Source of the DNA: Leucobacter denitrificans
Lineage (GTDB): Bacteria; Actinomycetota; Actinomycetes; Actinomycetales; Microbacteriaceae
Reading direction: 5' to 3'
Length of the DNA: 64,000 nucleotides
NCBI RefSeq assembly: GCF_014396385.1
Contig: NZ_CP060716.1
Location: 992,001-1,056,000 of the forward strand
Below, in pieces: positions 17,882 through 62,262 of this stretch (positions within the stretch are counted from its first letter, which is position 1; each line of letters begins with the position of its first letter). Below the pieces are notes generated by a model that was not told the DNA's origin, ran no database searches, and saw nothing but the letters and a program-made list of their open reading frames with translations. The position numbers and the translations under genes are program-made.

Positions 17882-19318
17882 TCAGTCGCGTCTCGGCTCG
17901 ATCCGAATGAGGTCGGGGTCGAACTTCACGTGACCAGGAACGATGGGCTCGATCGTCACCGTCACCAGCTCATCCACGAGCATCCGGCGGCGGTCCACGT
18001 CCAACGCCTTCCACTTCGACTCGACCACCTCGCGGCGTTCCGCGGTGCCGACCGGCTCGTCCACCTCCGCGAGCAGCTTCGCCGCCACCGACACCGAGCG
18101 GTCGAGCAGCTCCGCGTCGATCTCGTCGATGCGTGCCTTCACGTCGTTGATCGCCGCCGTGATCTCCAGGACCGGCTGGTGGATGTCGCGCAGCAGCGGA
18201 CTCAGCTCCTTCACGCGTTCGACCAGGGCGTTCCGCTCAGTCAGCAGTTCTTCGCGGTCGGGCCCGGCGTCTTCCTGGGGCATCACGAGGTCGTGCACGT
18301 CCACCGAGGACAGACGGGTGAGCACCGCCTCGGCGACCATCGCATCGACGGGCTCGCGCTGGCGGGTCAGGTGGAACTTTTCGCCGCAGCGGTACGTCGG
18401 GTGCTTGCGGCTGTTCGTCCCCGAGACGAGCGTCGCGCCGCACTTCCCACACAGTCCGATCGTGGACAGAAGGTACTTCGGCTGATTGCCCTGCCTCGCC
18501 GACCTCCGCACATTGTCCTCCAGCTTCGCCACCGCGGCCCGCCACGTCTGCTCGCTCACGATGGGCGGGAACATCCCGTCCTGCACCGGGTACAGCTCGC
18601 CCGAGGCGTAGTGCTTGATGTAGCCAGCGTATTGCGGATTCGCCAGCAGGTAGCGCACGGCATCGACGGAGAACTCCGACCCGCGGGCAGTGCGGTGACC
18701 AGCGCGGTTCAGGTCCTCGCGGATGCGGCGGATCGACAGCGACGGCTCACCGAGGAACGCATCGAACGCCCGCCGAACGGCCTCAGCCTCATCCTCGATC
18801 AGTTCACCCTCCCTCGTCCAGCCGAATGCCTTCCACGTGGACGCCGGGATGCCCTCGGCTCGGCGACGCTCGTTCGACCTGATCTGACGTTCAGCCTTGC
18901 GCCGTGCCTCGAACCGGGCCAACGCGGCGAGCATCGTCGCCCGGAACTCGCCGTCGGCCGTAGAGAGGTCGATCTCGCCGTCCACCGTGACGACCCTCAG
19001 GCCGAGGTCGATCAGCGTGTTCAGATCCTTCGTGCTGCGCAGCAGCCGGTCCATGTCCACCGCGACCACCATCGAGAACCGGCCAGCCTTGGCGTCCTCC
19101 AGCATCTCGGCCCAGCGCGTGCCAGCACGGCGCTTCTTCGTCGCCGACACTGCGTTATCCTCGTAGACCTCGACCACATTCCAGTCCTTGGCCTCGGCGA
19201 GCGCCCTGATCTTCCGCAGTTGCGTATCGACCGTCCAGCGGTCGCCCTTGCGGTCCATGGAGGCGCGGACGTATGCCGCCACCTCGTTCGTCTTCCTCAG
19301 CGCTACCAGTTCGACCAT
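17882..19318 (-). CDS. Large serine recombinase (element integrase)
   Basis: A 478-residue site-specific recombinase. The N-terminal resolvase domain has AAYVRASMDRKGDRWTVDTQ with the nucleophilic Ser in YVRAS near residue 19, and VAVDMDRLLRS. The recombinase domain (about 165-290) includes AFGWTREGELIEDEAEAVRRAF. A zinc ribbon CGKCGATL ... YRCGEK near 305-335 follows, then a coiled coil (about 350-420). All are hallmarks of phage/ICE serine integrases. It begins 40 bp from the right junction, the usual place for the integrase next to attP. No recombination directionality factor is recognised in the element. The ATG at 19318 could be preceded by other starts. Confidence 0.92.
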   Translation of the reverse strand: MVELVALRKTNEVAAYVRASMDRKGDRWTVDTQLRKIRALAEAKDWNVVEVYEDNAVSATKKRRAGTRWAEMLEDAKAGRFSMVVAVDMDRLLRSTKDLNTLIDLGLRVVTVDGEIDLSTADGEFRATMLAALARFEARRKAERQIRSNERRRAEGIPASTWKAFGWTREGELIEDEAEAVRRAFDAFLGEPSLSIRRIREDLNRAGHRTARGSEFSVDAVRYLLANPQYAGYIKHYASGELYPVQDGMFPPIVSEQTWRAAVAKLEDNVRRSARQGNQPKYLLSTIGLCGKCGATLVSGTNSRKHPTYRCGEKFHLTRQREPVDAMVAEAVLTRLSSVDVHDLVMPQEDAGPDREELLTERNALVERVKELSPLLRDIHQPVLEITAAINDVKARIDEIDAELLDRSVSVAAKLLAEVDEPVGTAERREVVESKWKALDVDRRRMLVDELVTVTIEPIVPGHVKFDPDLIRIEPRRD

Positions 19319-19339
19319 GTAACCAAGCTTACGCGAACG

Positions 19340-19375
19340 AGTGTTTCAACCTCGATATGCACTACGAAAACCCGC
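19340..19375. other. Right element junction
   Basis: Element DNA passes into LLM coding sequence (GAT ATG CAC TAC GAA) at the ATGC core 19358-19361. Together with the left junction this predicts the empty target as GAC ATG C followed by ACTACGAAAA. Confidence 0.75.
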
Positions 19376-20145
19376 TGTATCTCGCCGAAGAAGCCGCAGC
19401 GCTCGACTTCATCGCCGATGGCAGACTCGCGCTCGGCATCAGCCGCGGATCCCCCGAGCCAGCGATTCGCGGATACGAACACTTTGGGTACACGGGCTCG
19501 GAAGACCCTCGCGGCGCCGATCTCGCGCGCGAGAAATTCGACCTGTTCCTGCGTGCGATTTCAGGTGAGCGGATCGCAGAGGCCGATCCACAGATGGTGC
19601 CTCCCGGCAAGCTCGCGATCGAACCCCACTCACCTACACTGCGCGACCACGTTTGGTGGGGTGCAGGCTCGCGCGCGACCGCCGAAGAGACCGGCCGCAA
19701 GGGTTTGAACCTCATGAGCTCAACCCTGCTCACCGAGGCGACTGGCAAGCCGTTTCACGAGCTGCAACGTGAGCAAATCGACGTGTTTCGCGCCGCCTAC
19801 CGCGAAGCAGGCCACAGTGGATCGCCCCGCGTTTCCGTGAGCCGCAGCGTGTTTCCGATCGTGAACGAACAGGATGAGATGTTCTTCGGGCTGCCGTCGC
19901 GCGAGAATCGCGATCAGGTGGGCGTCATCGACGGGATGCAGTCAACGTTCGGGAAGACGTACGCGGCGACGCCCGATGTGCTCATCGAGCAGTTGAAGGC
20001 CGACGAGGCCGTGATGGAGGCGGATACGCTGATGCTCACGATCCCGAACCAGCTCGGCCCCGAGTACAACCTGCACATCCTCGAGTCATTCGCGAAGCAC
20101 GTCGCCCCCGCTCTGGGATGGCAGTCGAGCACAGAGAACGCGTAG
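19359..20145 (+). pseudogene. 3' part of LLM-class flavin oxidoreductase
   Basis: About 261 codons in frame from the junction to a TAG at 20145: YENPLYLAEEAAALD, then GRLALGISRGSPEPAI, typical of bacterial luciferase-like (FMN or F420-dependent) monooxygenases. It has no start of its own within the gene remnant. In-frame codons do extend back across the junction to 19273 over the integrase 5' end, so a fusion peptide is conceivable but unlikely to work. See the 5' part at 11154. Confidence 0.88.
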
Positions 20146-20165
20146 CGTTCGAATGCTCGACTGGA

Positions 20166-20205
20166 GCCGCCACTGCGGCTGCCCACGGAGCGAAGCGAGG
20201 GGTGG
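20166..20205. repeat. Interspersed repeat, copy A
   Basis: Contains the shared core CCCACGGAGCGAAGCGAGG preceded by a GC-rich palindromic CCGCCACTGCGGC. It lies just after the LLM stop. Copies B, C and D are at 20248, 22124 and 62221. Confidence 0.75.
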
Positions 20206-20247
20206 ACGTCAGGCGAGAAAGCACCGCTTTCGAGCCTCGCGTCCAGT

Positions 20248-20310
20248 GCTGCCCACGGCGGCAGCCCACGGAGCGAAGCGAGGGGTGAGCCGAACTGGGA
20301 AGGGCCAGTC
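20248..20310. repeat. Interspersed repeat, copy B (left border of the ars module)
   Basis: Same core as copy A, preceded by CTGCCCACGGCGGCAG (imperfect palindrome) and followed by a conserved tail with CTGGGAAGG and CCAGTC. The stretch between A and B can form an imperfect stem (GGACG...GAAAGC with GCTTTC...CGTCC), so A and B form a tandem REP-like unit. Confidence 0.75.
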
Positions 20311-20324
20311 GAAGGGAATCGGTT

Positions 20325-21020
20325 CTAGTCAGAAGCACGAGTCTCAGCCAGCGCTGCTTTTACTGAGGCATCTACGAGGAGTCGAGCAATGATGAGTCCG
20401 AGAAATCCGCCAACTATTTGAGCTGCCAGAAATCCCAGGGCACTCAGGGGCGCGATTCCGGCAAAGGTGTCAGAGAACACTCGCCCGAGGGTTACTGCAG
20501 GATTCGCAAACGCGGTAGAGCTGGTGGCGAAAAAGGCAGCGCCGATGTATGCCGCCACCGAAACAGCGATCTTCTGATGCTGTTTCAGGCTCACCAATAC
20601 AAAAATCACGACAACGAGCCCTGCAGTGGCGATTACTTCTGACAGAGCGTGTGGCCAGCCCAATCGCTGGTGCGCACTGAACGAGACGGCATCCAGGCCA
20701 AACATGACGTTTGCTAATACCGCACCCACGACTCCCCCGGCGAGCTGTGCGAACACATATTGGAGTGCGTATGTGTTTGTATTACCCAACCCGCGATCAA
20801 CCAGAGTGATCACCGGATTCAAGTGCGCACCACTGATCGGTTGGAAAATAGTGATCAGTACAAACAGCGCGGACGATGTCGCTAAGGCATTAATGAGCAG
20901 CTGAAGTCCCAGGTCATCTGGTGTGAGCCGAGAGGCGGCAATTCCAGACCCGATGATTGCTGCGACAAGCCCCGCGCTTCCGAGAAACTCAGCGAGTAGT
21001 CGGCGCATCATTGAGGTCAT
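20325..21020 (-). CDS. aqpS: AqpS-like aquaglyceroporin of the arsenic module
   Basis: A 231-residue MIP-family channel with six predicted helices and the two pore half-helix boxes, SGAHLNPVIT (NPV) near residue 66 and STAFANPAVT (NPA) near 170. When arsenate is reduced in the cell, an aquaglyceroporin can let arsenite flow out down its gradient, as established for S. meliloti AqpS. The context supports this role: it overlaps arsR by 4 bp and arsC lies divergently. No ArsB or Acr3 pump is present. The first NPA box is NPV, a variant also seen in other MIP proteins. Confidence 0.82.
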   Translation of the reverse strand: MTSMMRRLLAEFLGSAGLVAAIIGSGIAASRLTPDDLGLQLLINALATSSALFVLITIFQPISGAHLNPVITLVDRGLGNTNTYALQYVFAQLAGGVVGAVLANVMFGLDAVSFSAHQRLGWPHALSEVIATAGLVVVIFVLVSLKQHQKIAVSVAAYIGAAFFATSSTAFANPAVTLGRVFSDTFAGIAPLSALGFLAAQIVGGFLGLIIARLLVDASVKAALAETRASD

Positions 21021-21367
21021 ACAGTAGCGAGGAGGTGCGCGATGCTATCGAGCGCCCCCGGGACAAGACGATAGTAAGCCCAAGTGCCCCGCTTCGTCCG
21101 GTTGAGAAACCCAGCATCCACAAGTACCCGTAAATGGTGCGACACTGTCGGCTGGCTCAGGTCGAGAGGTTCGGTGAGATCACAGACACAGGCTTCGCCC
21201 TCGTCGTGCGCAGCCACCATCGAGATCAAACGCAGCCTAGCCGGATCAGCTAAGGCTTTTAACTTCCGCGCGAGCTCTTCAGCCTCTTCCGCAGTAACGA
21301 TCTCACGAGAGATTGGTGCGCAACAGAGCTGCGTCTCGTGTACGTCAAGCGATTCGATAGTTGCCAT
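21017..21367 (-). CDS. arsR: ArsR-family arsenite-responsive repressor
   Basis: A winged-helix repressor of about 116 residues with the recognition helix in DLSQPTVSHHLRVLVDAG. Cys15-Cys16 (QLCCAP) and the ACVCDL motif are candidate As(III) thiol ligands. If the second ATG (21367) is the start, the CC pair falls at 15/16 as I recall for C. glutamicum ArsR, so I prefer it to the ATG at 21373. Expected action: binds the intergenic operator and represses both aqpS-arsR and the divergent transcript until arsenite binds. The aqpS start overlaps its stop. Confidence 0.9.
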   Translation of the reverse strand: MATIESLDVHETQLCCAPISREIVTAEEAEELARKLKALADPARLRLISMVAAHDEGEACVCDLTEPLDLSQPTVSHHLRVLVDAGFLNRTKRGTWAYYRLVPGALDSIAHLLATV

Positions 21368-21388
21368 ATACATAGATTCTCATAAATA

Positions 21389-21445
21389 TTGACGCCTGTC
21401 GATTTACGCACCATAATCGAAACATCGACATTCATCAATACAGAG
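21389..21445 (+). promoter_or_regulatory. Divergent ars promoter and presumed ArsR operator
   Basis: Plus strand: TTGACG (21389-21394), 17-bp spacer, CATAAT (21412-21417), a good sigma-70-type promoter for the small peptide ORF and arsC. Minus strand: TTGATG, 17 bp, TATGGT in the overlapping 21410-21440 region, for arsR-aqpS. The half-site-like ATCGA...TCGAT sequences between 21400 and 21430 are likely ArsR contacts. Confidence 0.6.
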
Positions 21446-21457
21446 AAACGAGCTAAC

Positions 21458-21526
21458 ATGTTTGACTGCTGCGACATGCCTGAGTGCCTAGAAATCTGCT
21501 TGGATTCCGTCGAGGAATGCTGCTAA
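21458..21526 (+). CDS. 22-residue Cys-rich acidic peptide in the ars locus
   Basis: ATG to TAA, 22 codons. Six cysteines (positions 4, 5, 10, 14, 21, 22, including CC pairs near both ends) and seven Asp/Glu with no basic residue. It begins about 35 nt after the predicted transcription start and ends 1 nt before a strong hairpin that precedes arsC. The ribosome site is weak (ACGAG 5 nt upstream). I do not recognise it. The composition suggests thiol-based metalloid binding or a leader peptide; both are inference. Translation is unproven, but composition and position are unlikely to be chance. Confidence 0.5.
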   Translation: MFDCCDMPECLEICLDSVEECC

Positions 21527-21527
21527 C

Positions 21528-21570
21528 GGAGCGCGTGCGCACGCCCCTGGCGGGCCTGCGCACGCGCTCC
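21528..21570 (+). terminator. Strong hairpin between the peptide ORF and arsC (attenuator or processing stem)
   Basis: GGAGCGCGTGCGCA (21528-21541) pairs perfectly with 21557-21570. An inner GCCC/GGGC adds four pairs around a short loop. No T-tract follows; instead a CCCCCGTAACCCCC stretch leads to the arsC ribosome site. It could attenuate transcription, stabilise the upstream RNA, or be remodelled by translation of the peptide ORF. Confidence 0.65.
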
Positions 21571-21595: not shown

Positions 21596-22000
21596 ATGAC
21601 CACAACGCCTTCAGTGCTCTTTGTTTGCGTTCATAATGCTGGTCGCTCACAAATCGCTGCCGGATATCTTCAGACCTTCGCAGGAGACAAGGTCAGAGTG
21701 CTTTCAGCCGGAAGCGAGCCCGTCGCGTCAATTAACCAGGTTGCCGTAGAGGTGATGGCCGAGGATGGCATCGATATCACCGCTAATACACCGAAACTGT
21801 TGAGCACCGATGCAGTGCGAGAGTCCGATGTTGTCATAACTATGGGGTGTGGCGACACCTGCCCCATTTTCCCTGGCAAGCGCTACGAAGACTGGGATCT
21901 GGAAGACCCTGCGGGGAAAGACATTAATACTGTACGCCGCATCAGGGATGAGATTCGGCAACGAGTCGAGACCCTCATTTCGGAGCTCTCAAGTCATTGA
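21596..22000 (+). CDS. arsC: Arsenate reductase, LMW-phosphatase fold (mycothiol-dependent type)
   Basis: A 134-residue cytosolic enzyme. The nucleophile loop CVHNAGRS (C-x5-R-S) is near residues 11-18. A second redox region MGCGDTCPIFPGKRYEDWDLEDP near 82-104 carries the general-acid Asp and further cysteines. These fit actinobacterial arsenate-mycothiol transferases, which reduce arsenate to arsenite. AAGGAGA lies 7 nt before the ATG. The arsenite made would leave through the divergently encoded AqpS channel. Confidence 0.92.
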   Translation: MTTTPSVLFVCVHNAGRSQIAAGYLQTFAGDKVRVLSAGSEPVASINQVAVEVMAEDGIDITANTPKLLSTDAVRESDVVITMGCGDTCPIFPGKRYEDWDLEDPAGKDINTVRRIRDEIRQRVETLISELSSH

Positions 22001-22123
22001 CCGAGCCACACTCCATTTCACGAGCAAACGGTAGCGTCAACGAGACTTCGGCATTCATTAATTTGCATTGCAAAAACCTCCGAAGTATGTGCTTCATGAA
22101 CCCTTCCCAGCAGCCCGGCCGGA

Positions 22124-22185
22124 GCAGCCACTGCGGCAGCCCACGGAACGAAGCGAGGGAGGAGCCCAGCTGGGAAGGACCAGTC
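22124..22185. repeat. Interspersed repeat, copy C (right border of the ars module)
   Basis: Same core as the other copies with one change (GGAACGAAGCGAGG) and the same tail CTGGGAAGG-A-CCAGTC as copy B. A 10-bp inverted pair CCTTCCCAGC (22102-22111)/GCTGGGAAGG (22169-22178) encloses it, so it can fold into a large stem between two convergent genes. Confidence 0.7.
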
Positions 22186-22199
22186 ACAGGCTATTCGAT

Positions 22200-22541
22200 T
22201 TAGTCGTGCTCTGCCTCGTTCGCGCAAGCTTCGCCGGGTGGGGCCGAGCAGCCCGTGCCGGATTGGAATGCCGGTTCGCTAGGACCAAGAACGCCGAGGG
22301 CCACATAGGTGAGCGCGCCGATCACGATCCCGCCGCCAATCACGAGAAACACTCGCGCCTTGCGCGCTCGCCGGGCAACCGTAGCCGCCCCAACAATCAG
22401 CAGAACCGTGCCGATTATGGCTGCATAGAACGGACCGAACGAAGATCCATATAAGCCCGCGACAGCAGCAAGAATACCCAAGAGAACCCAACGGAATCGA
22501 ACCCCTGGAGTTCCCGGAGTCGCATTCCGGTGATTCGTCAT
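22200..22541 (-). CDS. Small membrane protein (113 aa)
   Basis: Three hydrophobic segments (WVLLGILAAVAGLYG, AAIIGTVLLIVGAATVA and VFLVIGGGIVIGALTYVALG) separated by a basic loop RRARKAR, then a short extracytoplasmic tail with two cysteines (GTGCSAPPGEACANE). No family recognised. The start has only a weak AGAG upstream. It is convergent with arsC across repeat C. Confidence 0.6.
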   Translation of the reverse strand: MTNHRNATPGTPGVRFRWVLLGILAAVAGLYGSSFGPFYAAIIGTVLLIVGAATVARRARKARVFLVIGGGIVIGALTYVALGVLGPSEPAFQSGTGCSAPPGEACANEAEHD

Positions 22542-62220: not shown

Positions 62221-62262
62221 TGCCGCCCACGGCGGCAGCCCACGGAGCGAAGCGAGGGGTGG
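62221..62262. repeat. Interspersed repeat, copy D
   Basis: GCCGCCCACGGCGGCA (imperfect palindrome) followed by CCCACGGAGCGAAGCGAGG and GGTGG, as in copies A-C. It lies 18 bp after the acs stop; the acs 3' end is repeated immediately after it (62261-62285). Confidence 0.78.

Follow-up and report, generated by a model that had tools for sequence, protein, structure and literature searches.

The window, which is the whole stretch of 64,000 nucleotides of Leucobacter denitrificans DNA that was analysed, carries an arsenic-resistance locus in which the genes for an aquaporin and an ArsR repressor are divergent from arsC (Table 1). Between the ArsR-type promoter and arsC lies an ORF of 22 codons on the forward strand (ATG 21458 to TAA 21526), whose product contains six Cys and seven acidic residues (3 Asp, 4 Glu) and no Lys, Arg or His. 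This reading confirms the description given in an earlier note on this DNA, which had placed in the interval between the ars promoter and arsC a 22-residue peptide with six Cys, seven acidic residues and no basic one. The Cys residues form a CC-x4-C-x3-C-x6-CC framework, with CCDMPEC as the CC-x4-C instance, and when the interval holding the ORF (the slot) was subjected to dinucleotide shuffling, an ORF with at least six Cys and 25% Cys was found in 1 out of 2000 shuffles. The ribosome site is as weak as the earlier note had claimed, with only a GAG placed 5 nt before the ATG.

Table 1. Features of the ars locus in the window, in order of position.
Feature	Positions	Strand	Basis or remark
Aquaporin (MIP family), likely arsenite channel, downstream of arsR	20325..21020	-	ORF, domain match
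arsR, divergent ArsR/SmtB repressor, LCC and CVC cysteines	21017..21373	-	ORF, domain match
ArsR-type operator 1, ATTGACGCCTGTCGAT, over -35	21388..21403		perfect palindrome match
Sigma-70-like promoter, TTGACG-17-CATAAT	21389..21417	+	promoter scan, 10/12 matches
ArsR-type operator 2, ATCGACATTCATCAAT, near inferred transcription start	21424..21439		perfect palindrome match
Weak ribosome-binding remnant GAG, 5 nt 5' of ATG	21450..21452	+	read from sequence
Micropeptide gene, MFDCCDMPECLEICLDSVEECC	21458..21526	+	ORF read, relatives
Hairpin, outer stem of 14 pairs, no T-run	21528..21570	+	directly 3' of peptide stop; similar hairpins in most relatives
arsC, arsenate reductase, LMW-phosphatase family; AAGGAG ahead of start	21596..22000	+	ORF, domain match

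The promoter ahead of the ORF had been called good. With 10 of 12 positions matched it is weak evidence when taken alone, as 2 such sites were found in 1.9 kb against 1.1 expected, but the call is strengthened by the presence there of two perfect copies of the ArsR-type palindrome ATYGAYNNNNRTCRAT (21388-21403 and 21424-21439). Upstream regions of related ArsR genes had at least one such site in 109 out of 110 cases and at least two in 96, against none in 110 control stretches, so these palindromes are very probably the ArsR operators. All the loci with a peptide in the slot (29/29) showed at least two of them. Judged from its operators, which overlie the promoter, the window ORF would belong to the ArsR regulon. 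The position of the promoter implies a leader of ~34 nt before the ORF, and relatives carry ribosome sites.

Downstream of the ORF, the claimed succession of a strong hairpin and arsC was recovered (hairpin at 21528-21570, arsC from 21596). The scan found no terminator-like site, and the search of Rfam over it gave a sub-threshold match to a miRNA family and nothing else.

The module formed by aquaporin, arsR, peptide and arsC is flanked by imperfect direct repeats (47-78 nt, with a CCCACGGAGCGAAGCGAGG core) at 20155-20330 and 22113-22205, and a further copy of the core was seen 40 kb off, at 62239-62257. A serine recombinase gene, with Resolvase and Recombinase domains, adjoins a luciferase-like monooxygenase ORF (17882-19318 and 19273-20145, respectively) whose Pfam match begins at profile position 81, its start being seemingly missing, and the GC content drops from ~0.67 to 0.54 from this region across to the ars genes. 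Taken together, these features suggest that an element was inserted next to the ars genes. The same genome has a second ars locus (L329, C1:2189000-2200500), with ACR3, an ArsR-fusion-like protein and an arsC that matches a reference ArsC from a Cellulomonas plasmid at 82%; a matching micropeptide is absent from it.

Relatives of the peptide and their arrangement

The earlier note had proposed a tblastn search with the ORF itself. Among 54 genomes of the genus, the window peptide as query retrieved its own copy plus one chance match, and missed a relative present in the genome G047; the relatives were found with other peptides and with ArsR. The scan upstream of arsC (174 tblastn hits) showed a similar Cys-rich ORF at that place in three other genomes of the bacterial family. 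When one relative peptide was searched against 398 family genomes, 14 genomes gave matches at E <=0.05, of which 10 were judged real and 4 chance; the weak hits L123-L126 of this search were dropped as chance-like. A blended peptide query produced matches in 15 of the 28 genomes of genus g55, at 16 places. In these whole-genome searches no seeding with ars genes was used, and all 18 loci examined from them (16 g55, 2 g28) showed next to the peptide a divergent ArsR with 63-71% identity to that of the window. In 13 of these 18 loci arsC lies behind the peptide, and the other five lack an adjacent arsC, which is located elsewhere in those genomes. A search with profile A2 against 396 genomes of the order gave no new full-length member, but only the window and one partial match, L140.

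A second survey was seeded with an ArsR of this group. Among 299 family genomes 120 places were listed, and 110 were taken, leaving out the ten weakest. A Cys-rich micro-ORF in the slot (divergent strand, <=450 nt, ORF of 12-45 codons, >=4 Cys and >=15% Cys, no Cys-Cys-stop ending being demanded) was detected at 29 of these 110 loci, and 29/29 ended in Cys-Cys-stop. Dinucleotide shuffles of the 110 slots (20 rounds) gave a mean of 1.75 loci, 0.05 when the Cys-Cys-stop ending was included and 0 when a ribosome site was added, while the minus strand of the same slots gave a single ORF, with none ending in CC. Likewise, CC-ending ORFs were absent from 181 kb of flanks more than ~1 kb away from the g55/g28 peptides, and there were three in 490 kb of 80 named arsC loci, of which a single one has a ribosome site.

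Nine more CC-ending ORFs with good ribosome sites were found directly after arsC, at 500-549 nt, where arsR and arsC are directly divergent; MTECCDTSCCTENCADGCICC, MESSTGCCSGGCC and MDECCEGCC are examples. This brings the total to 38 of the 110 ArsR loci (29 in the slot and 9 after arsC) in 19 genus codes, all 38 ending in Cys-Cys-stop, or to 36 in a stricter count without L175 and L179. The other 72 loci have no such peptide, so the micropeptide is dispensable. In a phylum sample of 29 loci (25 outside the family; about 50 further ArsR places fell outside that count), similar ORFs were seen in seven (L272, L274, L278, L281, L286, L293 and L296), that of L274 having no CC ending, and the ars loci of further actinobacterial families also have such ORFs. 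In Nocardioides sp. Root240 (L080) the peptide MDDCCTGTGCC is divergent from arsR, and in a Naasia sp. (L075) the ATG of MDTCCDGSCCTGACADGCTCC overlaps the stop of the preceding ORF. Plasmids gave a different picture, with no micropeptide in 12 selected plasmid loci (four chosen by ArsR and eight by ArsC, seven of the latter eight with ACR3) and no match in tblastn of a relative peptide against plasmids. A distant DNA search with the intergenic region against plasmids gave only short matches among the matches listed, at query positions 129-198, which correspond to the hairpin region.

The collected set comprises 53 distinct peptides of 9-28 residues (median 22), and its 1057 residues include 315 Cys, 206 Asp plus Glu, 5 Arg, 6 His and neither Lys nor Trp, figures in which the N-termini are approximate, starts having been chosen by rule, and which come mostly from peptides collected with the CC-stop criterion, the 29 slot ORFs being collected without it. 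At least two CC pairs are present in 52 of the 53. The CC-x4-C spacing appears in 47 of 53, against a mean of 8.5 and a maximum of 18 in shuffles; outside the g55-like LPDG type it appears in 36 out of 40, and shuffles that kept the CC pairs whole reached a maximum of 21/40. CC-x3-C was not above this stricter null. Being short, Cys-rich and variable in sequence, these peptides could recall the precursors of modified natural products or thiol-rich secreted peptides, but a leader region is absent and no modification enzyme was recognised among the flanking ORFs of 8 loci, which differ between genera (the wider scan of neighbours used arsenic-gene references), and such an origin is extremely improbable.

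A hairpin after the peptide stop is present in most slot loci. In the g55/g28 group its arms, GGGCCGYCG...CGGCGGCCC, are found in 12/12 aligned loci of the arsC type (one omitted), with one-sided compatible changes, and in the stand-alone loci strong GC-rich stems appear within 75 nt after the stop in four out of five, the fifth (L148) having only a repeat-based one. In this L148 (G315), the final codons of the peptide gene recur in tandem behind the stop as GATGTTGCTGGCAAGCAG units, as though a duplication had put the CC end out of service. From these sequences, we infer that the hairpin could mark where the peptide message ends, or act on it as a partial terminator, so that peptide would be made in excess of ArsC.

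The hairpin also bears on an option that the earlier note had left open, a leader peptide that depends on cysteine or mycothiol status, where the passage of the ribosome over the Cys codons would set the stop at the hairpin before arsC. Actually, in the window the Cys codons run up to the stop, the hairpin begins 1 nt past it and arsC is next, and the hairpin is preserved in the g55 relatives. Moreover, the closest published analogue comes from mycobacteria, also actinobacteria, in which short regulatory ORFs rich in Cys are reported, and polycysteine ORFs upstream of an operon gene are described as leaderless, cis-acting attenuators (PMC9094748, citing Canestrari 2020). However, an attenuator should always precede the gene that it controls, and the leader role is disfavoured because 5/18 loci have no arsC following the peptide, and in nine loci of the ArsR survey the peptide closes the unit, 3' of arsC. 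Unlike the mycobacterial attenuators as reported there, the micropeptides thus occur also alone or last in the operon, and in place of a leaderless start the promoter position would imply a 5' leader, with ribosome sites in relatives. In L281 the peptide comes behind the aquaporin, and in L310 it directly abuts the aquaporin; the hairpin has no T-run, and residues other than Cys are constrained as well (see below). A leader role is therefore highly improbable.

In both L310 (G324) and L317 (G070), almost nothing separates the peptide stop from the aquaporin region, so that co-translation of peptide and channel may occur there.

The same arrangements were weighed for a role as redox partner of ArsC, in which the CC pairs would give electrons to the arsenate reductase or resolve its disulfide. 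The adjacency of arsC in 13/18 loci, the more frequent presence of ArsC at peptide loci (31 of 36) than at the rest (41 of 74), and the retention of arsC elsewhere in the five stand-alone genomes are in line with it, but in the stand-alone loci the peptide is untied from arsC, and the enriched motif is CC-x4-C, as in ArsD, the thioredoxin-type CxxC not being dominant. We consider this role distinctly unlikely. The constant neighbour is ArsR and not ArsC (18/18 loci), which favours a feedback sink or co-regulator, with the peptide taking As(III) from ArsR to tune the response; any peptide that binds As(III) would have this effect as a side result, and this role is very improbable.

Coding constraint and the window copy

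As codon-level evidence, the 16 equally long cores of the g55/g28 group gave a pN/pS of 0.27 in the peptide frame against 1.8 in the other two frames (the pairs being non-independent), with 7, 6 and 15 variable columns out of 20 at the first, second and third codon positions. The length differences of the two shorter cores are whole codons, and the mean pairwise difference was 0.16 in the core, 0.65 in the 60 nt past the stop and 0.40 upstream, the values of the flanks coming from ungapped comparison and being inflated by indels. The peptide frame is thus under purifying selection in this group. The earlier note had named a lack of codon-level conservation in homologous loci, or an excess of nonsynonymous change and stops, as what would speak against the peptide; instead, relatives were found and their frame is constrained. 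A chance origin of the window ORF is rejected on this conservation, and on the slot counts, the strand and shuffle controls, the selection and a relative of the same genus. A micropeptide family of arsenic loci is therefore real and selected.

That relative came from a search of the genus with the window ArsR, in which 11 loci were examined besides the window's own. In the nearest one (L332, genome G047, ArsR with 71% identity) the slot holds MMNGCCESIDCLPGCHGCGCGCC behind AAGGAGAGGAG, a good ribosome site, and after it come a hairpin-like stretch and arsC. Counted from the second Met of MMNGCCESIDCLPGCHGCGCGCC, Cys 4, 5, 10, 14, 21 and 22 match the six of the window peptide. In the tree, the window ArsR falls in a group of 27 rows, 25 of them from slot loci (SH-aLRT 91, not starred). 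When the window peptide was scored with a profile of the relatives, its score was equalled or exceeded by 76 of 4991 of its own shuffles if no bias correction was applied, and by 770 of 4991 if it was. The window copy is a divergent member of the family, called so because the profile fails to separate it clearly from its own shuffles, and, given also how weak its ribosome site is, it could be in decay or translated only poorly. The weak ribosome site, the loss of the Pro/Gly middle and the weak profile score would all agree with an untranslated remnant of the family, but the six cysteines, the frame and the Cys-Cys-stop ending are intact and match the relative in G047, and we find the remnant unlikely.

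Likeness to ArsD and proposed role

Three of the peptides were searched in Pfam and NCBIfam with no accepted match, in agreement with the earlier note, which knew of no named family. No curated metallothionein family was matched either, with a single sub-threshold keratin hit (E 0.17). In the open-access literature, judged by titles and the openings of abstracts (subscription papers and preprints lying outside this scope), no description of such peptides was found, and passages of arsenic-resistance surveys do not mention them; the family is apparently undescribed. Metallothioneins have reportedly been predicted in actinobacteria (Schmidt, in 2010, cited in PMC4531530), and could be related.

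The closest likeness is to ArsD (PF06953), with which the micropeptides share the CC-x4-C spacing and the ars operon context. In ArsD, Cys12, Cys13 and Cys18 form the As(III) site. The spacing is present in three actinobacterial ArsD proteins (LCCNTGVCG), whose tails also end in CC as those of the micropeptides do, and in a solved ArsD (CCSTGVC, 3mwh). By contrast, ArsD has about 110-138 residues against 9-28, and its fold and Pfam domain, matched by genuine ArsD proteins, are not in the three peptides searched; the likeness may not reflect common descent. ArsD is reported to bind arsenite and hand it to ArsA (PMC6205960), and no match to arsA or arsD was found in the peptide loci L310-L328 or in the 9 kb around the window locus.

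Other thiol ligands were also compared. Metallothioneins and phytochelatins, including the translated analogue EC20, which has been expressed alongside an ars module in E. coli according to PMC4611968, are likewise short, acidic and Cys-rich, but they are built of CxC or (Glu-Cys)n, whereas the micropeptides have vicinal CC pairs and CC-x4-C and, unlike them, show ArsR-type operators as their predicted control; the three peptides searched match no Pfam family. The As(III) sites of AfArsR and CgArsR combine a vicinal CC with a third Cys, as in the micropeptides, but within a DNA-binding protein and not freestanding; a free model peptide of the AfArsR site, with CC-x5-C, is reported to bind As(III) with a logK of 6.35 at pH 7.5 (PMC11212059).

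On these grounds, we regard it as probable that the window ORF is a genuine gene, one of a so far unnamed family encoding Cys-rich micropeptides of 9-28 residues in ArsR regulons, and that its product would act as a freestanding, ArsD-like binder, buffer or carrier of arsenite. Metal(loid) binding, one of the functions offered in the earlier note, is supported by inference from the ArsR-type operators, the ArsD-like CC-x4-C and the As(III)-binding AfArsR peptide. Any specificity for arsenic is argued from the context, since Cys-rich peptides are also ligands for Hg(II), Cd(II), Zn(II) and further metals. The slot, the operators, the family, the constraint on the frame in relatives and the Cys framework are read directly from sequence; transcription, translation, arsenite as the ligand and its buffering, carriage or hand-over belong to the proposal. 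In the mechanism proposed, As(III) would inactivate ArsR and release the divergent promoter, giving a short mRNA with the peptide first, then the hairpin and then arsC; ArsC would convert arsenate into arsenite, to be held by the thiolates of the peptide (the ArsD-like CC-x4-C site and the C-terminal CC), and the loaded peptide could serve as a buffer or as a carrier, perhaps to the aquaporin channel. Such a hand-over, which the earlier note had also put forward, is possible, with the aquaporin adjacent in some peptide loci only; in Sinorhizobium, the aquaporin AqpS is described as the exit for arsenite together with ArsC (PMC6205960, PMC4435449). As a wider proposal, which we put forward tentatively as something that may well be so, widespread freestanding arsenite chaperones of 9-28 residues would represent ArsD cut down to its As(III) motif and a CC tail, carried in several actinobacterial families as a cassette of peptide plus hairpin placed before or after arsC, by an aquaporin or with arsR alone.

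Arsenic resistance is among the best studied bacterial stress systems, and if the chaperone reading is true, these would rank with the smallest known gene products that handle metal(loid)s, left without annotation owing to their size. Should As(III) be bound, actinobacteria would have genes that directly specify the type of ligand which plants synthesise with enzymes, the phytochelatins, and the nine residues of the gene product MDECCEGCC may suffice for a functional metalloid ligand. The family offers a natural series of variants for probing the selectivity of thiol peptides toward arsenite, and a marker for micro-ORFs skipped by annotation.

A link with the exporter was also considered, given that in the DNA examined ACR3 is present in none of 36 peptide loci and in 17 of 74 others. 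PF01758 is absent from all 17 peptide genomes of two genera, and equally from all 13 peptide-free genomes of one of them, and weak ArsB-family matches are present in 29 of 31 genomes, whether these carry the peptide or not. A link between the peptide and the absence of the exporter does not hold up, as the apparent exclusion of ACR3 is confounded by the lack of PF01758 in peptide-free genomes of the same genus (0/13).

The ArsD proteins of L302, L308 and L309 have C-terminal tails of the form CC...CC-stop, which closely resemble the short micropeptides, and an origin of the latter by detachment of an ArsD tail is possible.
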